From Longibaculum muris (GTDB lineage: Bacteria; Bacillota_I; Bacilli_A; Erysipelotrichales; Coprobacillaceae): 64,000 nt of DNA. Under the pieces are notes generated by a model that ran no database searches, was not told where the DNA came from, and saw only the letters and a program-made list of their open reading frames with translations. The stretch is from the NCBI RefSeq assembly GCF_004343035.1, contig NZ_SMCQ01000002.1, positions 1 to 64,000 on the forward strand, given 5' to 3'. The position numbers and the translations under genes were made by a program. Shown here in pieces: positions 31,359 through 38,055 of the stretch; positions within the stretch are counted from its first letter, which is position 1; each line of letters begins with the position of its first letter.

Positions 31359-32528
31359 TCACATACAAGCTTCATCAAGACATCCTTCTTCCATAATTGC
31401 TAACGCTAATTGAATAAGATTATCTTCATCAGCTTTTTTCATTGCCCCTTTGATTGTCACATTTCCTAAATCACCCATATTCTTCATTGTACTTGTGATA
31501 TCTTTCATAGTTCTTGTAGCACATGGTGCCCATGAACCATTTTCAATATAAGCAACTGGACGATTTTGGAAATTCTTATTTTTTAAATGATGTAAGAAAT
31601 CATCCATTGGAGCAAAGACTCCGCCATCATAACTTGACGCAGCTAATACCAATCGATCATAACAAAAAGCATCCCCTATTACTTCTGAAATATCTTCATG
31701 ACATAAATTTCTTAAAATAACTTTCTCTCCGTGTTTTTCTAATTCTGTTTTTAAAAACTGAGCAGCTTCGTATGTATGTCCATGAATTGATGCACAAACA
31801 ATCAATACCCCAGCTTCTTCACTTTGATAAGAACTCCATAATTGATAATAACGTAAATATTGCATTAAGTTTTCTTTTAAAACTGGTCCATGTAATGGAC
31901 AAATGGTTTCAATATGTAGACCTTTAAGCTTCTTTAAAACATTTTGAACTTGTAATCCATATTTCCCTACAATATTTGAATAATAACGTCTTGCTTCTTC
32001 AACCCAAGGATTTTGATCATCATTAAAGGTACCAAAAGCATCAGCACTAAAAACAAGTTTTGCCTCAACAAGATAACTCATCATAACCTCTGGCCAATGA
32101 ACCATTGGTGCCATCATAAACTGTAATGTATAACGTCCTAAAGATAATGTATCCCCTTCTTTAACTTGAATACGTTTGATCTGACTATCTAAACAAAAAA
32201 ATTGGTCAATCATCTGGAATGTTTTCATATTCCCGACAATTTGAATATTTGGATATTTCTCAGCTAAAACTTGAATACATGCTCCATGATCTGGTTCCAT
32301 ATGCGAAACAACCAAATAATCAGGCTCTCTATCTTTTAATACTTCTTCAATATTTTCCATCCAGATATCTTGTACTCTTTTATCAACTGTATCCATAATA
32401 ACAATTTTCTCATCTTTTATTACATAAGAATTATATGTAACTCCTTGCTTTAATGGATATTGTCCCTCAAATAAATCTAAAGCTTGATCATTAACACCAA
32501 CATAATAAATATCTTTACCTATCTCCAT
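31359..32528 (-). CDS. Flavodiiron protein (FprA-type oxygen/NO reductase)
   Basis: Reduces O2 (or NO) to water (or N2O) in anaerobes using a diiron site and FMN. The 389-residue protein has a metallo-beta-lactamase-like domain with ligands H76, E78, D80, H81 (HMEPDH), H144 (HWPE), D163 and H213, with the family spacing, then a flavodoxin domain from about 240 (VLIVCASIHGHTYEAA). There is no fused rubredoxin, so an external donor is needed. The start MEIGKDI follows GAGGTGA. It has its own promoter after the rnf terminator, so the rnf link is proximity, not shared transcript. Confidence 0.93.
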   Translation of the reverse strand: MEIGKDIYYVGVNDQALDLFEGQYPLKQGVTYNSYVIKDEKIVIMDTVDKRVQDIWMENIEEVLKDREPDYLVVSHMEPDHGACIQVLAEKYPNIQIVGNMKTFQMIDQFFCLDSQIKRIQVKEGDTLSLGRYTLQFMMAPMVHWPEVMMSYLVEAKLVFSADAFGTFNDDQNPWVEEARRYYSNIVGKYGLQVQNVLKKLKGLHIETICPLHGPVLKENLMQYLRYYQLWSSYQSEEAGVLIVCASIHGHTYEAAQFLKTELEKHGEKVILRNLCHEDISEVIGDAFCYDRLVLAASSYDGGVFAPMDDFLHHLKNKNFQNRPVAYIENGSWAPCATRTMKDITSTMKNMGDLGNVTIKGAMKKADEDNLIQLALAIMEEGCLDEACM

Positions 32529-32546
32529 ATTTTTCACCTCTATGCT

Positions 32547-32584: not shown

Positions 32585-32616
32585 TCAAAAGAAAAGAGAT
32601 TGCTTCGCAATCTCTT
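32585..32616 (-). terminator. Terminator of the rnf operon
   Basis: AAGAGATTGC (32594-32603) pairs perfectly with GCAATCTCTT (32607-32616) around a TTC loop, followed by a U-rich tract. It overlaps the rnfB stop codon, showing that the short rnfB ends here and no ferredoxin domain follows. Confidence 0.9.
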
Positions 32617-32926
32617 AAACAGTTACTTTTACAGTTGTTCCATCTGGTCCTGGAGTTTCATTCAAGTAAGAAACAATTTTTTCTCTTGTTTCTTGATTAC
32701 TTACAACACATCCAGAAACCTTAGTTGTTTCCCCTTCAACTAAAGCATTTGCAAATCCTGAACATCCTGGGTATCCACATCCACCACAGTTTGCTCCAGG
32801 AAGCATTTCAATGACTTCAGTAACACGGTTATCTTCTTCAACAACAAGATATTTATTGGCAATTCCTAAAACACATCCAAGAACTGCACCAATCGCAACT
32901 AATGCCAAAACTGCACTAATGTTCAT
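32615..32926 (-). CDS. rnfB: Short RnfB-like subunit (membrane anchor plus one Fe-S motif)
   Basis: RnfB normally takes electrons from or to ferredoxin through several [4Fe-4S] clusters. This 103-residue version has the usual N-terminal helix, the NKYLVVEEDNRVTEVIEMLP stretch and the single cluster motif C47-x2-C50-x4-C55-x17-C73. It then ends: the two ferredoxin-type domains (eight Cys) of ordinary RnfB are absent. A terminator overlaps the stop, so this is not a frameshift. The start MNISAVLAL follows GAGGATGA and overlaps the upstream small gene by 11 bp; a longer frame of 23 codons upstream is less likely. It is last in the rnfCDGEA-x-B operon. Confidence 0.85.
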   Translation of the reverse strand: MNISAVLALVAIGAVLGCVLGIANKYLVVEEDNRVTEVIEMLPGANCGGCGYPGCSGFANALVEGETTKVSGCVVSNQETREKIVSYLNETPGPDGTTVKVTV

Positions 32927-33101
32927 CTTTGTCTTCATCCTCATGATGAGCACTATGATGAGTACAAGCAATATTGTTGCAACCACCACATTCACTCATA
33001 TCTTCACACCCCTCTGGTTTAGGAGTATGTTTATTCATTAAATAAGTTCCAATAAAGACAGCCACCAATGCAGCCATCCATACAAATGCCCAAATGCTCA
33101 T
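32916..33101 (-). CDS. Small Cys/His-rich membrane protein between rnfA and rnfB
   Basis: No recognised family. The 61-residue protein has one N-terminal helix (about 3-22), then C32-x5-C38-x2-C41-x4-C46 and a tail rich in His, Asp and Glu (four His at 48-53, acidic to the end). The C-x2-C-x4-C spacing equals that of the RnfB cluster motif. It begins with TAATG overlap at the rnfA stop and overlaps the rnfB start by 11 bp, so it is translated within the rnf operon. Inference: a metal- or Fe-S-binding accessory subunit of Rnf. A resemblance to FeoB-associated Cys-rich membrane proteins is an alternative. Confidence 0.7.
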   Translation of the reverse strand: MSIWAFVWMAALVAVFIGTYLMNKHTPKPEGCEDMSECGGCNNIACTHHSAHHEDEDKDEH

Positions 33102-33673
33102 TAGACAAGACCTGCGATTCCGGCAATAGCACATGCCATAATCCCAGCAGTAATTAGTGCAATTGGTGTTCCTTTAAAACTTTCAGGAACGTTCGCAATA
33201 TCTAATCTTTCTCTAATTGTTGCAAAGACATAAATAACAATTGTAAATCCAATAGGTACTGCAAGTCCAGCAACTGCTGCTTCAATTAAGTTATATCCAG
33301 CACTGATATTATCTAATGCAACCCCTAATACCGCACAGTTTGTTGTAATTAATGGTAAATAAACACCCATTGCTTTATAAATGTCAGGACTTGTTTTCTT
33401 TAAGAACATTTCAACGAATTGAACTAAAGAAGCAATAACTAAGATAAAAGTAATCAAATCTAAGTAAGTAATTTCTAATTTTACCAATACATAGTTATAA
33501 AGTAACCAAGTTACAATAGAAGCTACAAAAATAACAAATGTAACAGCATAACCCATGTTTAAAGCATTCTTAGGTTTCTTAGAAACCCCAAGTAATGGAC
33601 AAACAGCATAGAATTTACTTAAAACAACGTTATTAACAAAAGTTAACCCAATAAATAAACTTACTAATTCCAT
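33101..33673 (-). CDS. rnfA: Electron transport complex subunit RnfA
   Basis: Integral membrane core subunit of the Rnf ion-pumping ferredoxin:NAD+ oxidoreductase, homologous to NqrE. The 190-residue protein has six helices and the paired symmetry motifs VNNVVLSKFYAVCPLLGV and LITTNCAVLGVAL, each with the Cys that shares an intramembrane Fe-S centre with RnfE. It starts 1 bp after rnfE. Length and motifs are normal. Confidence 0.95.
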   Translation of the reverse strand: MELVSLFIGLTFVNNVVLSKFYAVCPLLGVSKKPKNALNMGYAVTFVIFVASIVTWLLYNYVLVKLEITYLDLITFILVIASLVQFVEMFLKKTSPDIYKAMGVYLPLITTNCAVLGVALDNISAGYNLIEAAVAGLAVPIGFTIVIYVFATIRERLDIANVPESFKGTPIALITAGIMACAIAGIAGLV

Positions 33674-33674
33674 C

Positions 33675-34325
33675 CTATTTCACCTCCGCATTCTTTGCTT
33701 TCTTTTCTTTTCTAACTTTTAAGAATTGAATAAAAGCAAGGATACAACCTAAAGTAATAAATGCACCTGCAGGTTGAGTAAATAATGAAACAGCATATTC
33801 ACTAAAAGCACTAAATTGGAAAATCACTTGACTTGCATCAAATGGATTAAATAAAGATAATCCACCAGTTCCAATTAATTCTCTAAAGAATGAAATCACT
33901 AAAACTGCAAATGTATAACCTAGACCCATTCCTAAAGCATCTAAGAATGAATCAACAACACCATTTTTAGAAGCAAAGCTTTCAGCTCTCCCTAAAATAA
34001 TACAGTTAACAACAATCAATGGAATGAATACCCCTAAAGACTCATATAAAGCAGGTGTATATGCATTCATAATCATTTGAACACATTTAACTAGTGTTGC
34101 AATAATAACGATGAAAACAGGAATTCTGATTTCATTTGGAATAATATTTCTTAATAATGAAATAATCACATTACTCATAATTAAGACACAAATAACTGCC
34201 ATCCCCATCCCTAACGCATTTGTTAGTGATGTCGTAATTGCTAAGGCTGAACATAGACCTAACAATAAGACAAAGATTGGGTTTTCAATAAATAAACCTT
34301 TTTTAAAAATATCAAACTTTTTCAT
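33675..34325 (-). CDS. rnfE: Electron transport complex subunit RnfE
   Basis: Membrane core subunit homologous to NqrD and partner of RnfA. The 216-residue protein has six helices with the matching Cys motifs LLGLCSALAITTSL and PLIVVNCIILGRAE, plus FFRELIGTGGL near residue 145. The C-terminal tail is basic (KVRKEKKAKNAEVK). It lies 13 bp downstream of rnfG in the operon. Confidence 0.95.
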   Translation of the reverse strand: MKKFDIFKKGLFIENPIFVLLLGLCSALAITTSLTNALGMGMAVICVLIMSNVIISLLRNIIPNEIRIPVFIVIIATLVKCVQMIMNAYTPALYESLGVFIPLIVVNCIILGRAESFASKNGVVDSFLDALGMGLGYTFAVLVISFFRELIGTGGLSLFNPFDASQVIFQFSAFSEYAVSLFTQPAGAFITLGCILAFIQFLKVRKEKKAKNAEVK

Positions 34326-34338
34326 CTATGTTCCCTCC

Positions 34339-34869
34339 TTATTTAAAATTTTCTTCATAATGTTGAGTAGCTTGTTCAATTCCATCAACAACTGCTGAAG
34401 ATGAAATAGTTGCACCACTTATTGTATCAATACTATCGCCAATATTCTTACCAACGATACCATCTTTAAATGGTTGATCTTTAACTTTTGAACCAAAGCC
34501 ATTTGTTTCACCACTGGCATCAATAACTTCATAACCTTTATAAGTTCCATCTTTATCTAAAGCAATAAGATAAACGATTGGTGTACTTGCTCCACCATAA
34601 CCAGTAACACTACATTTATAAACATAACCTTTAACACTACCACCGCTACTTGCTTCATAAACAGCTTGTAAAGCAGGATAATCTGAAAGATTTGTTTCAA
34701 CAGCTTTGAATTCTTCACCAGAAGTATAAATCTTCACTAAATTTTCTTTTTCACTAGCAATTTTTGCTTCTTGAATCACTGGATCAGTCATTTCATACAC
34801 TGATGATAAGGCTGCTCCTGAAAGTCCAGCAACGACTGCAAGGAAAAGAGCTAATTTTAATATTTTCAT
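34339..34869 (-). CDS. rnfG: Electron transport complex subunit RnfG
   Basis: Extracytoplasmic flavoprotein subunit anchored by one N-terminal helix (about 3-24), homologous to NqrC. The 176-residue protein ends with the FMN-binding domain and the flavinylation motif DTISGATISS, in which the second Thr would be modified by ApbE. No apbE gene is in the window. It precedes rnfE by 13 bp and follows rnfD by 12 bp. Confidence 0.95.
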   Translation of the reverse strand: MKILKLALFLAVVAGLSGAALSSVYEMTDPVIQEAKIASEKENLVKIYTSGEEFKAVETNLSDYPALQAVYEASSGGSVKGYVYKCSVTGYGGASTPIVYLIALDKDGTYKGYEVIDASGETNGFGSKVKDQPFKDGIVGKNIGDSIDTISGATISSSAVVDGIEQATQHYEENFK

Positions 34870-34881
34870 AGATGTTCCTCC

Positions 34882-36732
34882 TTATTTTGTTGCTGCAATT
34901 GCTTTTTTAATTGCAGTAACAATTCCTTTCGTTGTCATTGTTGCACCAGTTTTTGTATCAACTCCATCAATATCAGCAAAACCAAATTCACTTGCTAAGT
35001 ATTTGTCATAGAAAGCTTTTCCTTTTTCTGTTGCTACTGGAGTTCCATGAACTAATTCAGCACCATAGTATTCTGTTTCACCAGATGCATCAATAAATTC
35101 AATCTTTTTCACAACTTGTTTTGCTTTATCTACAGTAATTTTGATTTTCATTGGTTGATCAGCATTGTATCCAACTTCACTCATTGTATAAACATAAGTG
35201 TCACCTTTGACTTCACGATCTAATTGAGACATGATAATAGCACCCTTAATTGCATTAACGATACCTTTTGTTGTCATTGTCGCACCAGTCTTTGTATCAA
35301 TACCATCAACTTCACTTGTTTTAAATTCACCAGTTAAATACTTATCATGGAATGCTTTACCTTTTTCAGTTGCTACTTCTGTTCCATGAACAATTTCAGA
35401 ACCATAATATTCTGTTTCACCAGGAGCTTCTAAGACTTTAACAGATTTAACTGTGTCACCAGATACTTTAACTTCAATTTTCATTGGTTGATCAGCATTA
35501 TATCCAGTTGTTTCCATAACAAAACCACCATCAACTTCTTTAACAACCTTCCAATTGAAAGCATTCGCTTCTTCTTCAGCCTTTTTCTTTTCAGCTTCTT
35601 CTTTTTTCTTCGCATCAGCAGCAGCTTTTGCTTCAGCCGCAGCAATATCGCTTTGGATACTATATCCAGCACCATAAACGCAACCAATAGACACACCTAA
35701 ACAAATAGCAATTGTAGCCCATTGTTTTGCAATTCTTGTATTTGTTCTACCTAAAATAAATGAATCAATTAATGGTGTTAACATATTCATCAATAAGATA
35801 GAGAATAAAACACCTTCAGGATAATTCGCTTTTAAACGAATAATCATTGTTAAAAATCCTAGTCCAATACCATAAACAATCTTACCAAGTGGACTTGTAG
35901 GCGATGTCACCGGATCTGTTGCCATGAAAATAGCTCCAAATGCTACCCCACCAATACATAAATGCATCACTGGATAAGTTGCTAAATCAAGACCATTCAT
36001 TAATGCATAAACACCACTTAAAATAAGAATAGTTCCTAAATAAGCTACTGGAATTCTTGCATCATAAACTTTTCTAAAAGCTAAAACAATTCCAACTAAT
36101 AAAATTAACCAGATACAAGTTTCACCTAAAGTTCCACCATGATTTCCTGTAATTAAATCCATCAATGTGTAACTAAAATCAGTTCCACCCATCCAATGAG
36201 TACCAGCAAGCATTGTAGCTGGTGTTGCTGTTGATGTGACATCAACAATTCCTTGAACACCACCCATTCCTTCAACATATGGTAATAATTTATCACCAAA
36301 TGATAAATGAACAAGAACACGTCCAACTAATGCTGGGTTAAAAATGTTTTGACCAAATCCACCAAAAACTAATTTTCCTAAGAAAATAGAAATAAATGAA
36401 CCAATCGCAACAACATATAAAGGTGTACCAATAGGTAAAGTCAAGGCAAAAATAATTGCGGTTACCCAAGGAAACCCATTTTTTATTTGTTCTAATACAT
36501 TTGTTTTATGGATAAGTCCCCACACTGCTTCAGTTGCAACTCCCACAACAATTGAAACCACATAAATAAGTGCTGCCGCAATCAATGGTTCATTTGTTGG
36601 GTAGTTATAATAGAAATGATATAAAGAATATGCAACAATCACCAATAATCCGATTGTTAAATCTCTCATAATACGATGTGTAGAGAGTTTTTGTCTATAG
36701 TTTGGTGACGTTCTTTGTAAAGTAATCTTCAT
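34882..36732 (-). CDS. rnfD: RnfD with two fused C-terminal FMN-binding domains
   Basis: The first 355 residues are an RnfD/NqrB-type membrane subunit with about ten helices; VDVTSTATPATML (163-175) occupies the usual flavin-Thr site and ATDPVTSPTSP (271-281) is conserved. After a charged Ala/Lys/Glu linker (about 362-392) come two RnfG-like FMN-binding domains, about 399-500 and 507-616. Each contains GYNADQPMKI, GETEYYG, and the motif DTKTGATMTT (Thr485 and Thr598 as likely FMN sites). Ordinary RnfD is about 310-350 residues; this one has 616. The two domains are very alike, indicating tandem duplication. Predicted to carry up to three covalent FMN. Confidence 0.92.
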   Translation of the reverse strand: MKITLQRTSPNYRQKLSTHRIMRDLTIGLLVIVAYSLYHFYYNYPTNEPLIAAALIYVVSIVVGVATEAVWGLIHKTNVLEQIKNGFPWVTAIIFALTLPIGTPLYVVAIGSFISIFLGKLVFGGFGQNIFNPALVGRVLVHLSFGDKLLPYVEGMGGVQGIVDVTSTATPATMLAGTHWMGGTDFSYTLMDLITGNHGGTLGETCIWLILLVGIVLAFRKVYDARIPVAYLGTILILSGVYALMNGLDLATYPVMHLCIGGVAFGAIFMATDPVTSPTSPLGKIVYGIGLGFLTMIIRLKANYPEGVLFSILLMNMLTPLIDSFILGRTNTRIAKQWATIAICLGVSIGCVYGAGYSIQSDIAAAEAKAAADAKKKEEAEKKKAEEEANAFNWKVVKEVDGGFVMETTGYNADQPMKIEVKVSGDTVKSVKVLEAPGETEYYGSEIVHGTEVATEKGKAFHDKYLTGEFKTSEVDGIDTKTGATMTTKGIVNAIKGAIIMSQLDREVKGDTYVYTMSEVGYNADQPMKIKITVDKAKQVVKKIEFIDASGETEYYGAELVHGTPVATEKGKAFYDKYLASEFGFADIDGVDTKTGATMTTKGIVTAIKKAIAATK

Positions 36733-36747
36733 TAATTTTCACCCTCC

Positions 36748-38055
36748 CTACGCTTTCTTTCTCTTTTGTGCAAGTTGATAACGACGTTTTGCTTTTGCTA
36801 CCATGTCTGTCACTTCAATCTTACTTGGACATACATAAGTACACATACCACATTCAATACAACGATCAACTTCCAATTTTTCAATTAATTCAACATTAGC
36901 TGCTTTTTCACCTTGCATAATACGCACAGGTTGTAAATGAGCAGGACAATGTAAAGTACATTCACCACATTTTAAACATGGTAAAGGTTTAATATCTTCT
37001 TTTTTCATGACTGTAATAGCATTGTTATGACTATAAATAACAAATGTATCATTCATGACTGATTTACCCATCATTGGTCCACCACCAACTAAGAATCCAT
37101 CACAATCTTCATCAATATAACCACCAAGTTTTTCAACAATATAGTTAACTGGTGTTCCAATTGCAACTTCAACGTTTTGTGGATTTTTTAATCCATTTCC
37201 AGAGAAAGTGACAACACGGTGAGTAATTGGTTCACCTTTTCTAATACCTTTAGATAAAGCAATTGCTGTTGATGAGTTATTAACAATAACACCAATTTCA
37301 GCAGGTAATTTATCATATTCTTTTTTAAAGATAGTATTCACTAAAACTCTTTCCCATCCCATTGGATAACGATCAGGTACTTCACGTGGTTCAATGTTAT
37401 CATAGTTCTTTGCTTCTTCAACTAATAATTCCATTAAATCAGGTTTATGTTCTTTAATCGCAATAATCGCATTCTTAGCTCCAGCAGCTTTGATTAAGAA
37501 GTGAGCCCCATCAAATAAAGCTTTAACATCTCTTTTCATCGCAAGATGATCACTTGTTAAAAATGGTTCACATTCTACCCCATTAATCAAGATTGTTTCA
37601 ATATTTGTTGGATTGCTATATTTCACATAAGTAGGGAATCCTGATCCTCCTAATCCAACAATACCTAATTCTTTAATGGCATTAAAGACTTCTTCTTGAC
37701 TCATATGGTCAGCATCTTTGACTTCATAAGCTTTTACTCTTTCGTTCTTATGGTCATTTTCAATGACGATATGCTGCTGTAATCTTTTTGAAGCATGCAT
37801 ACGTTTTTCAATTCCCTTAACAGTTCCCGAAACAGAAGAATAAATTGGCACATACATACTCTTACGAGTAGCCAACTTTGTACCTATACAAACATGATCT
37901 CCTTCTTTTACATGGACATCAAAATCTGTTGCTGTTCCTAAAACAAGGGGAATATAAACAACATCTGGTGCTTCAATAGACAAGATTGGTTTATCTTTTG
38001 TTAAACCTTTTTGTCCATCTAGTTTAATTTTTCCTTTTCCAGATAAAATTGACAT
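36748..38055 (-). CDS. rnfC: Electron transport complex subunit RnfC
   Basis: Peripheral NADH-binding subunit of Rnf, homologous to NqrF/NuoF parts. The 435-residue protein has the glycine-rich nucleotide/FMN region GIVGLGGSGFPTYVK, followed by GVECEPFLTSDH, a SLBB-like segment, and two ferredoxin-like clusters CLKCGECTLHCP (about 359-370) and CIECGMCTYVCPSKI (about 398-412). It is the first gene of the operon, preceded by GGAGGG, an extended -10 promoter and a Rex-like operator. Confidence 0.95.
   Translation of the reverse strand: MSILSGKGKIKLDGQKGLTKDKPILSIEAPDVVYIPLVLGTATDFDVHVKEGDHVCIGTKLATRKSMYVPIYSSVSGTVKGIEKRMHASKRLQQHIVIENDHKNERVKAYEVKDADHMSQEEVFNAIKELGIVGLGGSGFPTYVKYSNPTNIETILINGVECEPFLTSDHLAMKRDVKALFDGAHFLIKAAGAKNAIIAIKEHKPDLMELLVEEAKNYDNIEPREVPDRYPMGWERVLVNTIFKKEYDKLPAEIGVIVNNSSTAIALSKGIRKGEPITHRVVTFSGNGLKNPQNVEVAIGTPVNYIVEKLGGYIDEDCDGFLVGGGPMMGKSVMNDTFVIYSHNNAITVMKKEDIKPLPCLKCGECTLHCPAHLQPVRIMQGEKAANVELIEKLEVDRCIECGMCTYVCPSKIEVTDMVAKAKRRYQLAQKRKKA

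Follow-up and report, generated by a model that had tools for sequence, protein, structure and literature searches.

The rnf operon of Longibaculum muris encodes a variant of the Rnf complex in which RnfB lacks the usual ferredoxin-docking part, and RnfD is extended by an eleventh membrane helix and two FMN-binding domains predicted to lie outside the cell. Comparison with related genomes suggests that a short-RnfB, flavin-loaded Rnf runs through a whole bacterial class and that it delivers electrons outside the cell. We consider it rather probable that the system is a redox ion pump of a distinct Rnf type, with electrons flowing outward. The operon lies in a stretch of 64,000 nucleotides of contig NZ_SMCQ01000002.1, which was analysed as a whole and is called the window below.

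An rnf operon with an extended RnfD and a short RnfB

The genes follow the order rnfC-D-G-E-A, a gene for a 61-residue protein, rnfB, a terminator-like hairpin and a flavodiiron gene. The features, with the basis of each call in brackets, are:

36748..38055, minus strand: RnfC, with the FMN/NADH fold and two [4Fe-4S] motifs (TIGR01945, E 3e-104; PF01512)
34882..36732, minus strand: RnfD, 616 aa, with an added eleventh helix and two FMN_bind domains (open reading frame, Pfam)
35734..36714, minus strand: ten-helix RnfD core, residues 7-333 (PF03116, E 2e-84; alignment to 7zc6_D and 9eri_D)
within 36214-36231, minus strand: flavinylation-type TATP site of the RnfD core (sequence)
35656..35712, minus strand: eleventh transmembrane helix, residues 341-359, added to RnfD (hydropathy 1.74)
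35524..35655, minus strand: charged linker rich in K, E and A, RnfD residues 360-403 (sequence)
35239..35523, minus strand: FMN_bind domain 1 of RnfD, TGATMT at 35272-35289 (PF04205)
34900..35199, minus strand: FMN_bind domain 2 of RnfD, TGATMT at 34933-34950 (PF04205; profile match to RnfG 7zc6_G, E 3.5e-4)
34339..34869, minus strand: RnfG, a single FMN_bind with an SGATIS motif (PF04205; TIGR01947 at 78 bits against a curated cut-off of 102 bits)
33675..34325, minus strand: RnfE (TIGR01948, E 5e-73)
33101..33673, minus strand: RnfA (TIGR01943, E 1.5e-71)
32916..33101, minus strand: 61-aa membrane protein with the pattern N..TP.P.GC-x5/6-C-x2-C-x4-C, overlapping the rnfA stop codon (sequence; alignment of 21 homologues)
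32615..32926, minus strand: short RnfB, 103 aa, membrane helix and FeS domain only, followed by the terminator-like hairpin (PF04060, no Fer4)
31359..32537, minus strand: flavodiiron protein downstream of rnfB (ODP family, E 3e-19)

Subunits C, D, G, E and A are thus encoded together with their cofactor motifs, and no second Rnf was found in the genome. RnfG was assigned despite its sub-cut-off TIGR01947 score, as its FMN_bind domain, helix and position support the call. In RnfD, the NQR2_RnfD_RnfE match spans residues 7-327 (Pfam, E 2e-84) and the best structural-chain matches are 7zc6_D and 9eri_D. The TATP at residues 168-171 aligns with the TATP stretch of the Acetobacterium woodii and Clostridium tetanomorphum proteins; in A. 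woodii RnfD the covalent FMN sits on T156 (PMC11889175). Known Rnf is marked by a ten-helix RnfD with a covalent FMN site and riboflavin; the window protein keeps the core and the TATP site but has one helix more. Pfam found no PF00175 NAD-binding domain in the window RnfD, which is therefore neither of the Nqr/Rnf-like unidirectional type (Meheust 2021) nor an NqrF-type fusion.

The tail of RnfD contains two FMN_bind stretches (Pfam E 1.1e-15; 58 bits, cut-off 22), both with an intact TGATMT (residues 482-487 and 595-600) that conforms to the [S/T]GA[S/T]-x-[S/T] motif of this domain. The two are identical at 66 of 107 positions (62%) and are therefore tandem duplicates. A profile built on tail and RnfG domains hits C. 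tetanomorphum RnfG and the crystallised CbFMN4 domain with E ~4e-4. The assignment is based on these sequence profiles and not on Foldseek, where an AlphaFold model of one domain (pLDDT 76) gave zero significant matches, with RnfG structures among the top insignificant ones.

On which side of the membrane the tail lies can be approached from the known complex. RnfD of A. woodii has ten helices and a C-terminal loop that touches the cytoplasmic RnfC (PMC11889175), and the same helix count is given in PMC12174285. The added helix is present in 78 of 78 scorable short-RnfB relatives, with a mean of 3.8 K/R residues in the preceding loop against 1.4 in the next 15 residues. A ten-helix core with a cytoplasmic C-terminus, followed by one more helix after a K/R-rich loop, implies that the RnfD tail should be extracytosolic. 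An AlphaFold model of full-length RnfD (five sequences, pLDDT 51) was too poor and was left out of this call. The predicted location and the lipoprotein ApbE encoded in the genome agree with the FMN_bind assignment.

These results largely bear out the original prediction, which had described two C-terminal FMN domains on RnfD as tandem duplicates, present in addition to a separate RnfG with its own FMN_bind, and lying outside the cytosol. Its count of up to four covalent FMN stands as a prediction from sequence, with the TATP threonine of the RnfD core, RnfG and the two tail domains as putative sites. The linker, which it called charged and flexible, is indeed charged; its flexibility is less certain, as the low-confidence full-length model draws the linker as one long helix continuing the membrane helix. 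It did not cover the short form of RnfB, the small Cys-rich protein or the pattern across the lineage.

In known RnfB proteins, C-terminal ferredoxin-type domains dock ferredoxin (PMC12174285, PMC11889175), and the cluster of the FeS domain shuttles electrons from these domains to RnfA/E (PMC11889175). The window RnfB contains no C-terminal ferredoxin-type [4Fe-4S] domain: Pfam finds PF04060 alone, and alignment with full RnfB reveals no C..C..C...C motif. The next gene lies only 78 bases beyond the rnfB stop, and these bases hold the hairpin, so the remainder of RnfB is not hidden in another frame. A frame-shifted or separately encoded ferredoxin domain was likewise rejected, the sole other PF04060 protein of the genome overlapping an iron-hydrogenase match. 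Since a ferredoxin-docking RnfB is a defining feature of Rnf, we file the system as an Rnf variant and not as an ordinary member: judged by its encoded parts it is an Rnf without ferredoxin-docking domains.

The 61-residue protein consists of one helix followed by the Cys motif, whose four cysteines are invariant in 21 homologues. No family match exceeded its cut-off; PF12669 (FeoB-associated Cys-rich) appeared below cut-off in 6 of the 21 members (E 0.004-0.007) and PF04400 (NqrM) was not listed, so neither identity was adopted. The stand-alone homologues in the loci read do not lie beside FeoB, and with the Pfam match below threshold an association with FeoB was dropped as well. The protein may be a subunit or an assembly factor of this Rnf variant. 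Homologues away from Rnf occur at L166:7641-7796, L172:7445-7612, L176:7395-7643 and L169:7769-7960; three of these loci have conserved neighbours (uracil-DNA glycosylase-like and phosphohexomutase-like genes), and one homologue, from which the first cysteine is absent, lies near heavy-metal-associated-type proteins.

The flavodiiron gene has a like position in L036, L046, L047 and L051 but is kept in close relatives only, and its product is probably not a core part of the system. The window protein (31359-32537) is a possible oxygen-scavenging partner.

Spread and remodelling across the class

An RnfD-family protein was found in 203 of the 265 genomes of the order. The open frames fall into length classes near 310, 365-410, 460-550, 590-640 and 675-730 aa, which correspond, in about 100 loci read, to canonical RnfD and to the core plus eleventh helix with 0, 1, 2 or 3 FMN domains. 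The RnfD of Candidatus Stoquefichus massiliensis AP9 is likewise 616 aa long and 80% identical to that of the window. This protein, together with FMN-bearing RnfD recurring across the order, argues against a sequencing accident.

Each of the 83 short-RnfB loci also encodes the small Cys protein, which is found in 0 of 8 loci with full RnfB. RnfD of at least 345 aa, the 11-helix type, accompanies the short form in 82 of the 83. The four-Cys motif of RnfB and the clusters of RnfC are each retained in all 83. Searching with the small Cys protein as query retrieved the short-RnfB operon type from many other families of the class. In a FastTree phylogeny of RnfA, C, D and E the type forms one clade with 98% local support, which also takes in a few loci cut before rnfB.

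Within this clade the flavin tail is mobile, with about 11 gains or losses on the tree; it is missing from 34 of 83 short-RnfB relatives and is thus not essential to this type of pump. RnfG carries two or more FMN domains in 19 of the 83 loci. A second Rnf subunit has acquired a flavin tail in L061:8265-9326, L070:8417-9517 and L082:8320-9429, where RnfE is fused to FMN_bind via an added helix, giving proteins of 353-369 aa against the usual ~216. In addition, L177:2108-15001 holds two adjacent rnf operons, the first of the short-RnfB type and the second with a 304-aa RnfD; the first includes a 459-aa gene with three FMN domains between rnfG and rnfE.

A tree over 92 columns resolves the FMN domains of RnfD poorly and does not demonstrate a single origin for all of them, although the 21 copies of the window's family group together at 100%. 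Several copies within the order have a lost or altered SGAT motif, whereas both window copies and all Stoquefichus-type relatives keep theirs.

Other arrangements were also encountered. In L120 and L121, RnfD is fused to an apparent whole RnfG (511-526 aa) and a separate rnfG was not found; L121 has a full-length RnfB. This D-G fusion is an independent one. The region L202:4220-14112 presents a third Rnf arrangement, in which a candidate flavolipoprotein, apbE, rnfC-D-G-E-A and a NusG_II protein are followed by NfnA-like (DHODB_Fe-S_bind) and NfnB-like (Fer4_20 with Pyr_redox_2) genes; rnfB was not found there. The literature searched yielded nothing on a short RnfB or an FMN-fused RnfD.

Candidate partners on the outer surface

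The genome encodes one ApbE, a lipoprotein, as the original prediction would need; its gene lies away from the operon and adjoins a gene for a 321-aa lipoprotein with two repeats. These repeats end in D-L-A-S-K-C-T-I (D-x-x-S-G-C-T in many relatives) against the D-x-x-S-G-A-T of FMN_bind, and they are marginally similar to that family (Pfam E 0.83; E 1.3e-4 at 54% probability in a profile comparison). A larger FMN-bind2 subtype has been described (PMC10979944), and by sequence the protein is a candidate flavolipoprotein, perhaps akin to this subtype.

Among the listed genomes of the window's family, the candidate occurs in all 16 that have an FMN-bearing RnfD, against 0 of the remaining 20; these counts are uncorrected for shared ancestry. 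The 20 comprise genomes with canonical Rnf, without Rnf, or with a short RnfB and no tail (three genomes); G001, in which an apparent frameshift (L115) separates the tail from RnfD, was counted as FMN-bearing. Physical linkage points the same way. In L214, rnfC-D-G-E-A, the small gene, rnfB, the lipoprotein gene and apbE form an unbroken series on one strand; the lipoprotein gene of L213 is just downstream of rnfB, and in four more loci it lies within a few kb. All six have an FMN-bearing RnfD. The lipoprotein also occurs in some relatives without an RnfD-family match (e.g. G155-G157), and can therefore work with other donors. A cad-apbE pair was reported only in genomes without rnf (PMC7074142); here, in contrast, the apbE-lipoprotein pair coexists with rnf. 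Another possible outer electron carrier is a 117-aa FMN_bind lipoprotein with SGATKT, encoded elsewhere in the genome at L042:6749-7102.

Other routes to the outer surface were sought in the genome. UbiA prenyltransferase is absent (the control was positive in 14 of 14 genomes). No quinone route is therefore apparent, and quinone-based electron transfer of the Listeria type was rejected. Nor were a NapH-type Fer4_5, a ferric-reductase/MsrQ-like protein or a DsbD membrane domain found, which leaves Rnf as the sole route from the cytoplasm to outer flavins detected by a search of these four families. The idea of extracytosolic electron transfer coupled to an Rnf core hence gains from the co-occurring, often rnf-linked candidate lipoprotein and from the absence of the other routes sought. 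The picture of an ordinary Rnf core plus an arm is, however, incomplete, because RnfB is short and the usual ferredoxin entry module is missing.

Proposed electron export, its alternatives and known relatives

In the export model, a soluble low-potential donor would feed electrons into the residual RnfB cluster, possibly by direct transfer from ferredoxin; alternatively, NADH would supply them at the intact RnfC. The genome encodes pyruvate:ferredoxin oxidoreductase and iron hydrogenases, so the organism should make reduced ferredoxin. The Rnf core would then carry the electrons through the membrane, RnfA/E translocating ions as they do in known Rnf, to the flavins of RnfG and RnfD on the outer face. 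From there the RnfD tail domains would tap them and pass them through one or more flavolipoproteins to an extracytosolic acceptor. ApbE would attach the FMN. Donor, electron flow and acceptor we infer from the anatomy, which is the observed part. The repeated loading of FMN domains on RnfD, RnfE, RnfG and an extra gene speaks for the model. For one three-flavin protein that has been characterised, the midpoint lies near -184 mV (PMC10339131), a value at which transfer from ferredoxin or NADH would still run downhill. Against it we count the lipoprotein, in which SKCT or SGCT replaces SGAT and kinship with FMN_bind is marginal.

The motifs of the U-shaped return path to RnfC and NAD are all kept, so a conventional loop could still operate. 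The tail domains would then be spares, or internal relays easing electron transfer between RnfG and RnfD, in an ordinary ferredoxin:NAD cycle; ferredoxin would bind straight to the cluster of the short RnfB, and no electrons would be exported. The universally retained RnfB and RnfC cluster motifs, enzymes that make or use reduced ferredoxin and the existence of tail-less relatives are all in keeping with such a role. Yet the tail co-occurs with an outer-surface lipoprotein that is absent from tail-less short-RnfB relatives of the same family, and domains were added on several subunits, up to three per RnfD, beyond what a relay needs; we hold this explanation to be unlikely, if worth keeping in mind. 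More improbable still is that the tail serves cell-surface flavin storage, redox buffering or sensing with no defined electron path. Such a loose function would fit the lost or altered SGAT of several copies in the order, and the covalent multi-flavin proteins characterised to date are without a proven role and capable of reacting with oxygen (PMC10339131), but it sits poorly with the motif conservation in the window and its Stoquefichus-type relatives and with fusions that recur on Rnf subunits specifically. An RnfB far shorter than usual might also raise the suspicion that RnfD and RnfB are mis-assembled, decayed or artefactual, their ferredoxin domains in another frame or recently lost. The comparative data already refute this, leaving it next to no chance: a mere 78 bases with a hairpin follow rnfB, the short form recurs with all four cysteines in 83 surveyed loci of many families, and RnfD has relatives in matching length classes.

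Extending the export model to the class, the lineage without ferredoxin docking could be a quinone-free ion-pumping oxidoreductase that passes electrons from NADH (via RnfC) or a directly docking donor to its own covalent flavins and on to surface flavolipoproteins, with the small Cys4 protein as subunit or assembly factor. We offer this wider claim tentatively and with some doubt.

Compared with the canonical complexes of A. woodii (9ERI), C. tetanomorphum (7ZC6) and Azotobacter vinelandii (8AHX), the window system shares subunits C, D, G, E and A and their cofactor motifs; it differs in an RnfB without the C-terminal polyferredoxin part, an extra Cys4 membrane protein and an RnfD with 11 helices and two FMN_bind domains. 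The closest idea is that of multi-flavinylated RnfG, for which Meheust et al. 2021 (PMC8238504) proposed a branching of electrons to external acceptors. Tandem SGAT/TGAT FMN_bind domains on the extracytosolic side of Rnf are common to both, but in the sections of that study considered here RnfG alone is named, whereas our domains are on RnfD, or RnfE in some relatives, always with an added helix and with a short RnfB. Similarly, Rnf of Methanosarcina acetivorans has been proposed to feed an outer-surface carrier, the multihaem cytochrome MmcA (PMC6703419), in place of which flavin domains and a lipoprotein are found here. Flavin-based electron transfer in Listeria (Ndh2, DmkA/B, EetA/B, FmnB, PplA) also pairs an extracytosolic ApbE-type transferase with a two-repeat lipoprotein; ours is likened to PplA by gene layout, its FMN_bind kinship being marginal. 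Without a UbiA-type prenyltransferase there is no demethylmenaquinone link, and the membrane donor would be Rnf. Finally, Na+-NQR was proposed to derive from Rnf via loss of RnfB (PMC4014512). Its maturation seems to depend on a small membrane protein, NqrM, and the window system has a small membrane protein too. In Na+-NQR, however, NqrF replaces RnfB and quinone is reduced, while the window system retains an RnfB stub and shows no sign of quinone synthesis.

The accepted view of Rnf is that of a ferredoxin:NAD machine. If the export model is true, Rnf has been re-purposed as an electron exporter in a widespread lineage that lacks the ferredoxin module, and fermenting gut bacteria would have a means of energy conservation that uses outside acceptors and needs neither quinones nor cytochromes. 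The short-RnfB lineage also isolates the role of the RnfB shuttle domain and brings to light a small conserved membrane protein, possibly an assembly factor or subunit that had been missing.
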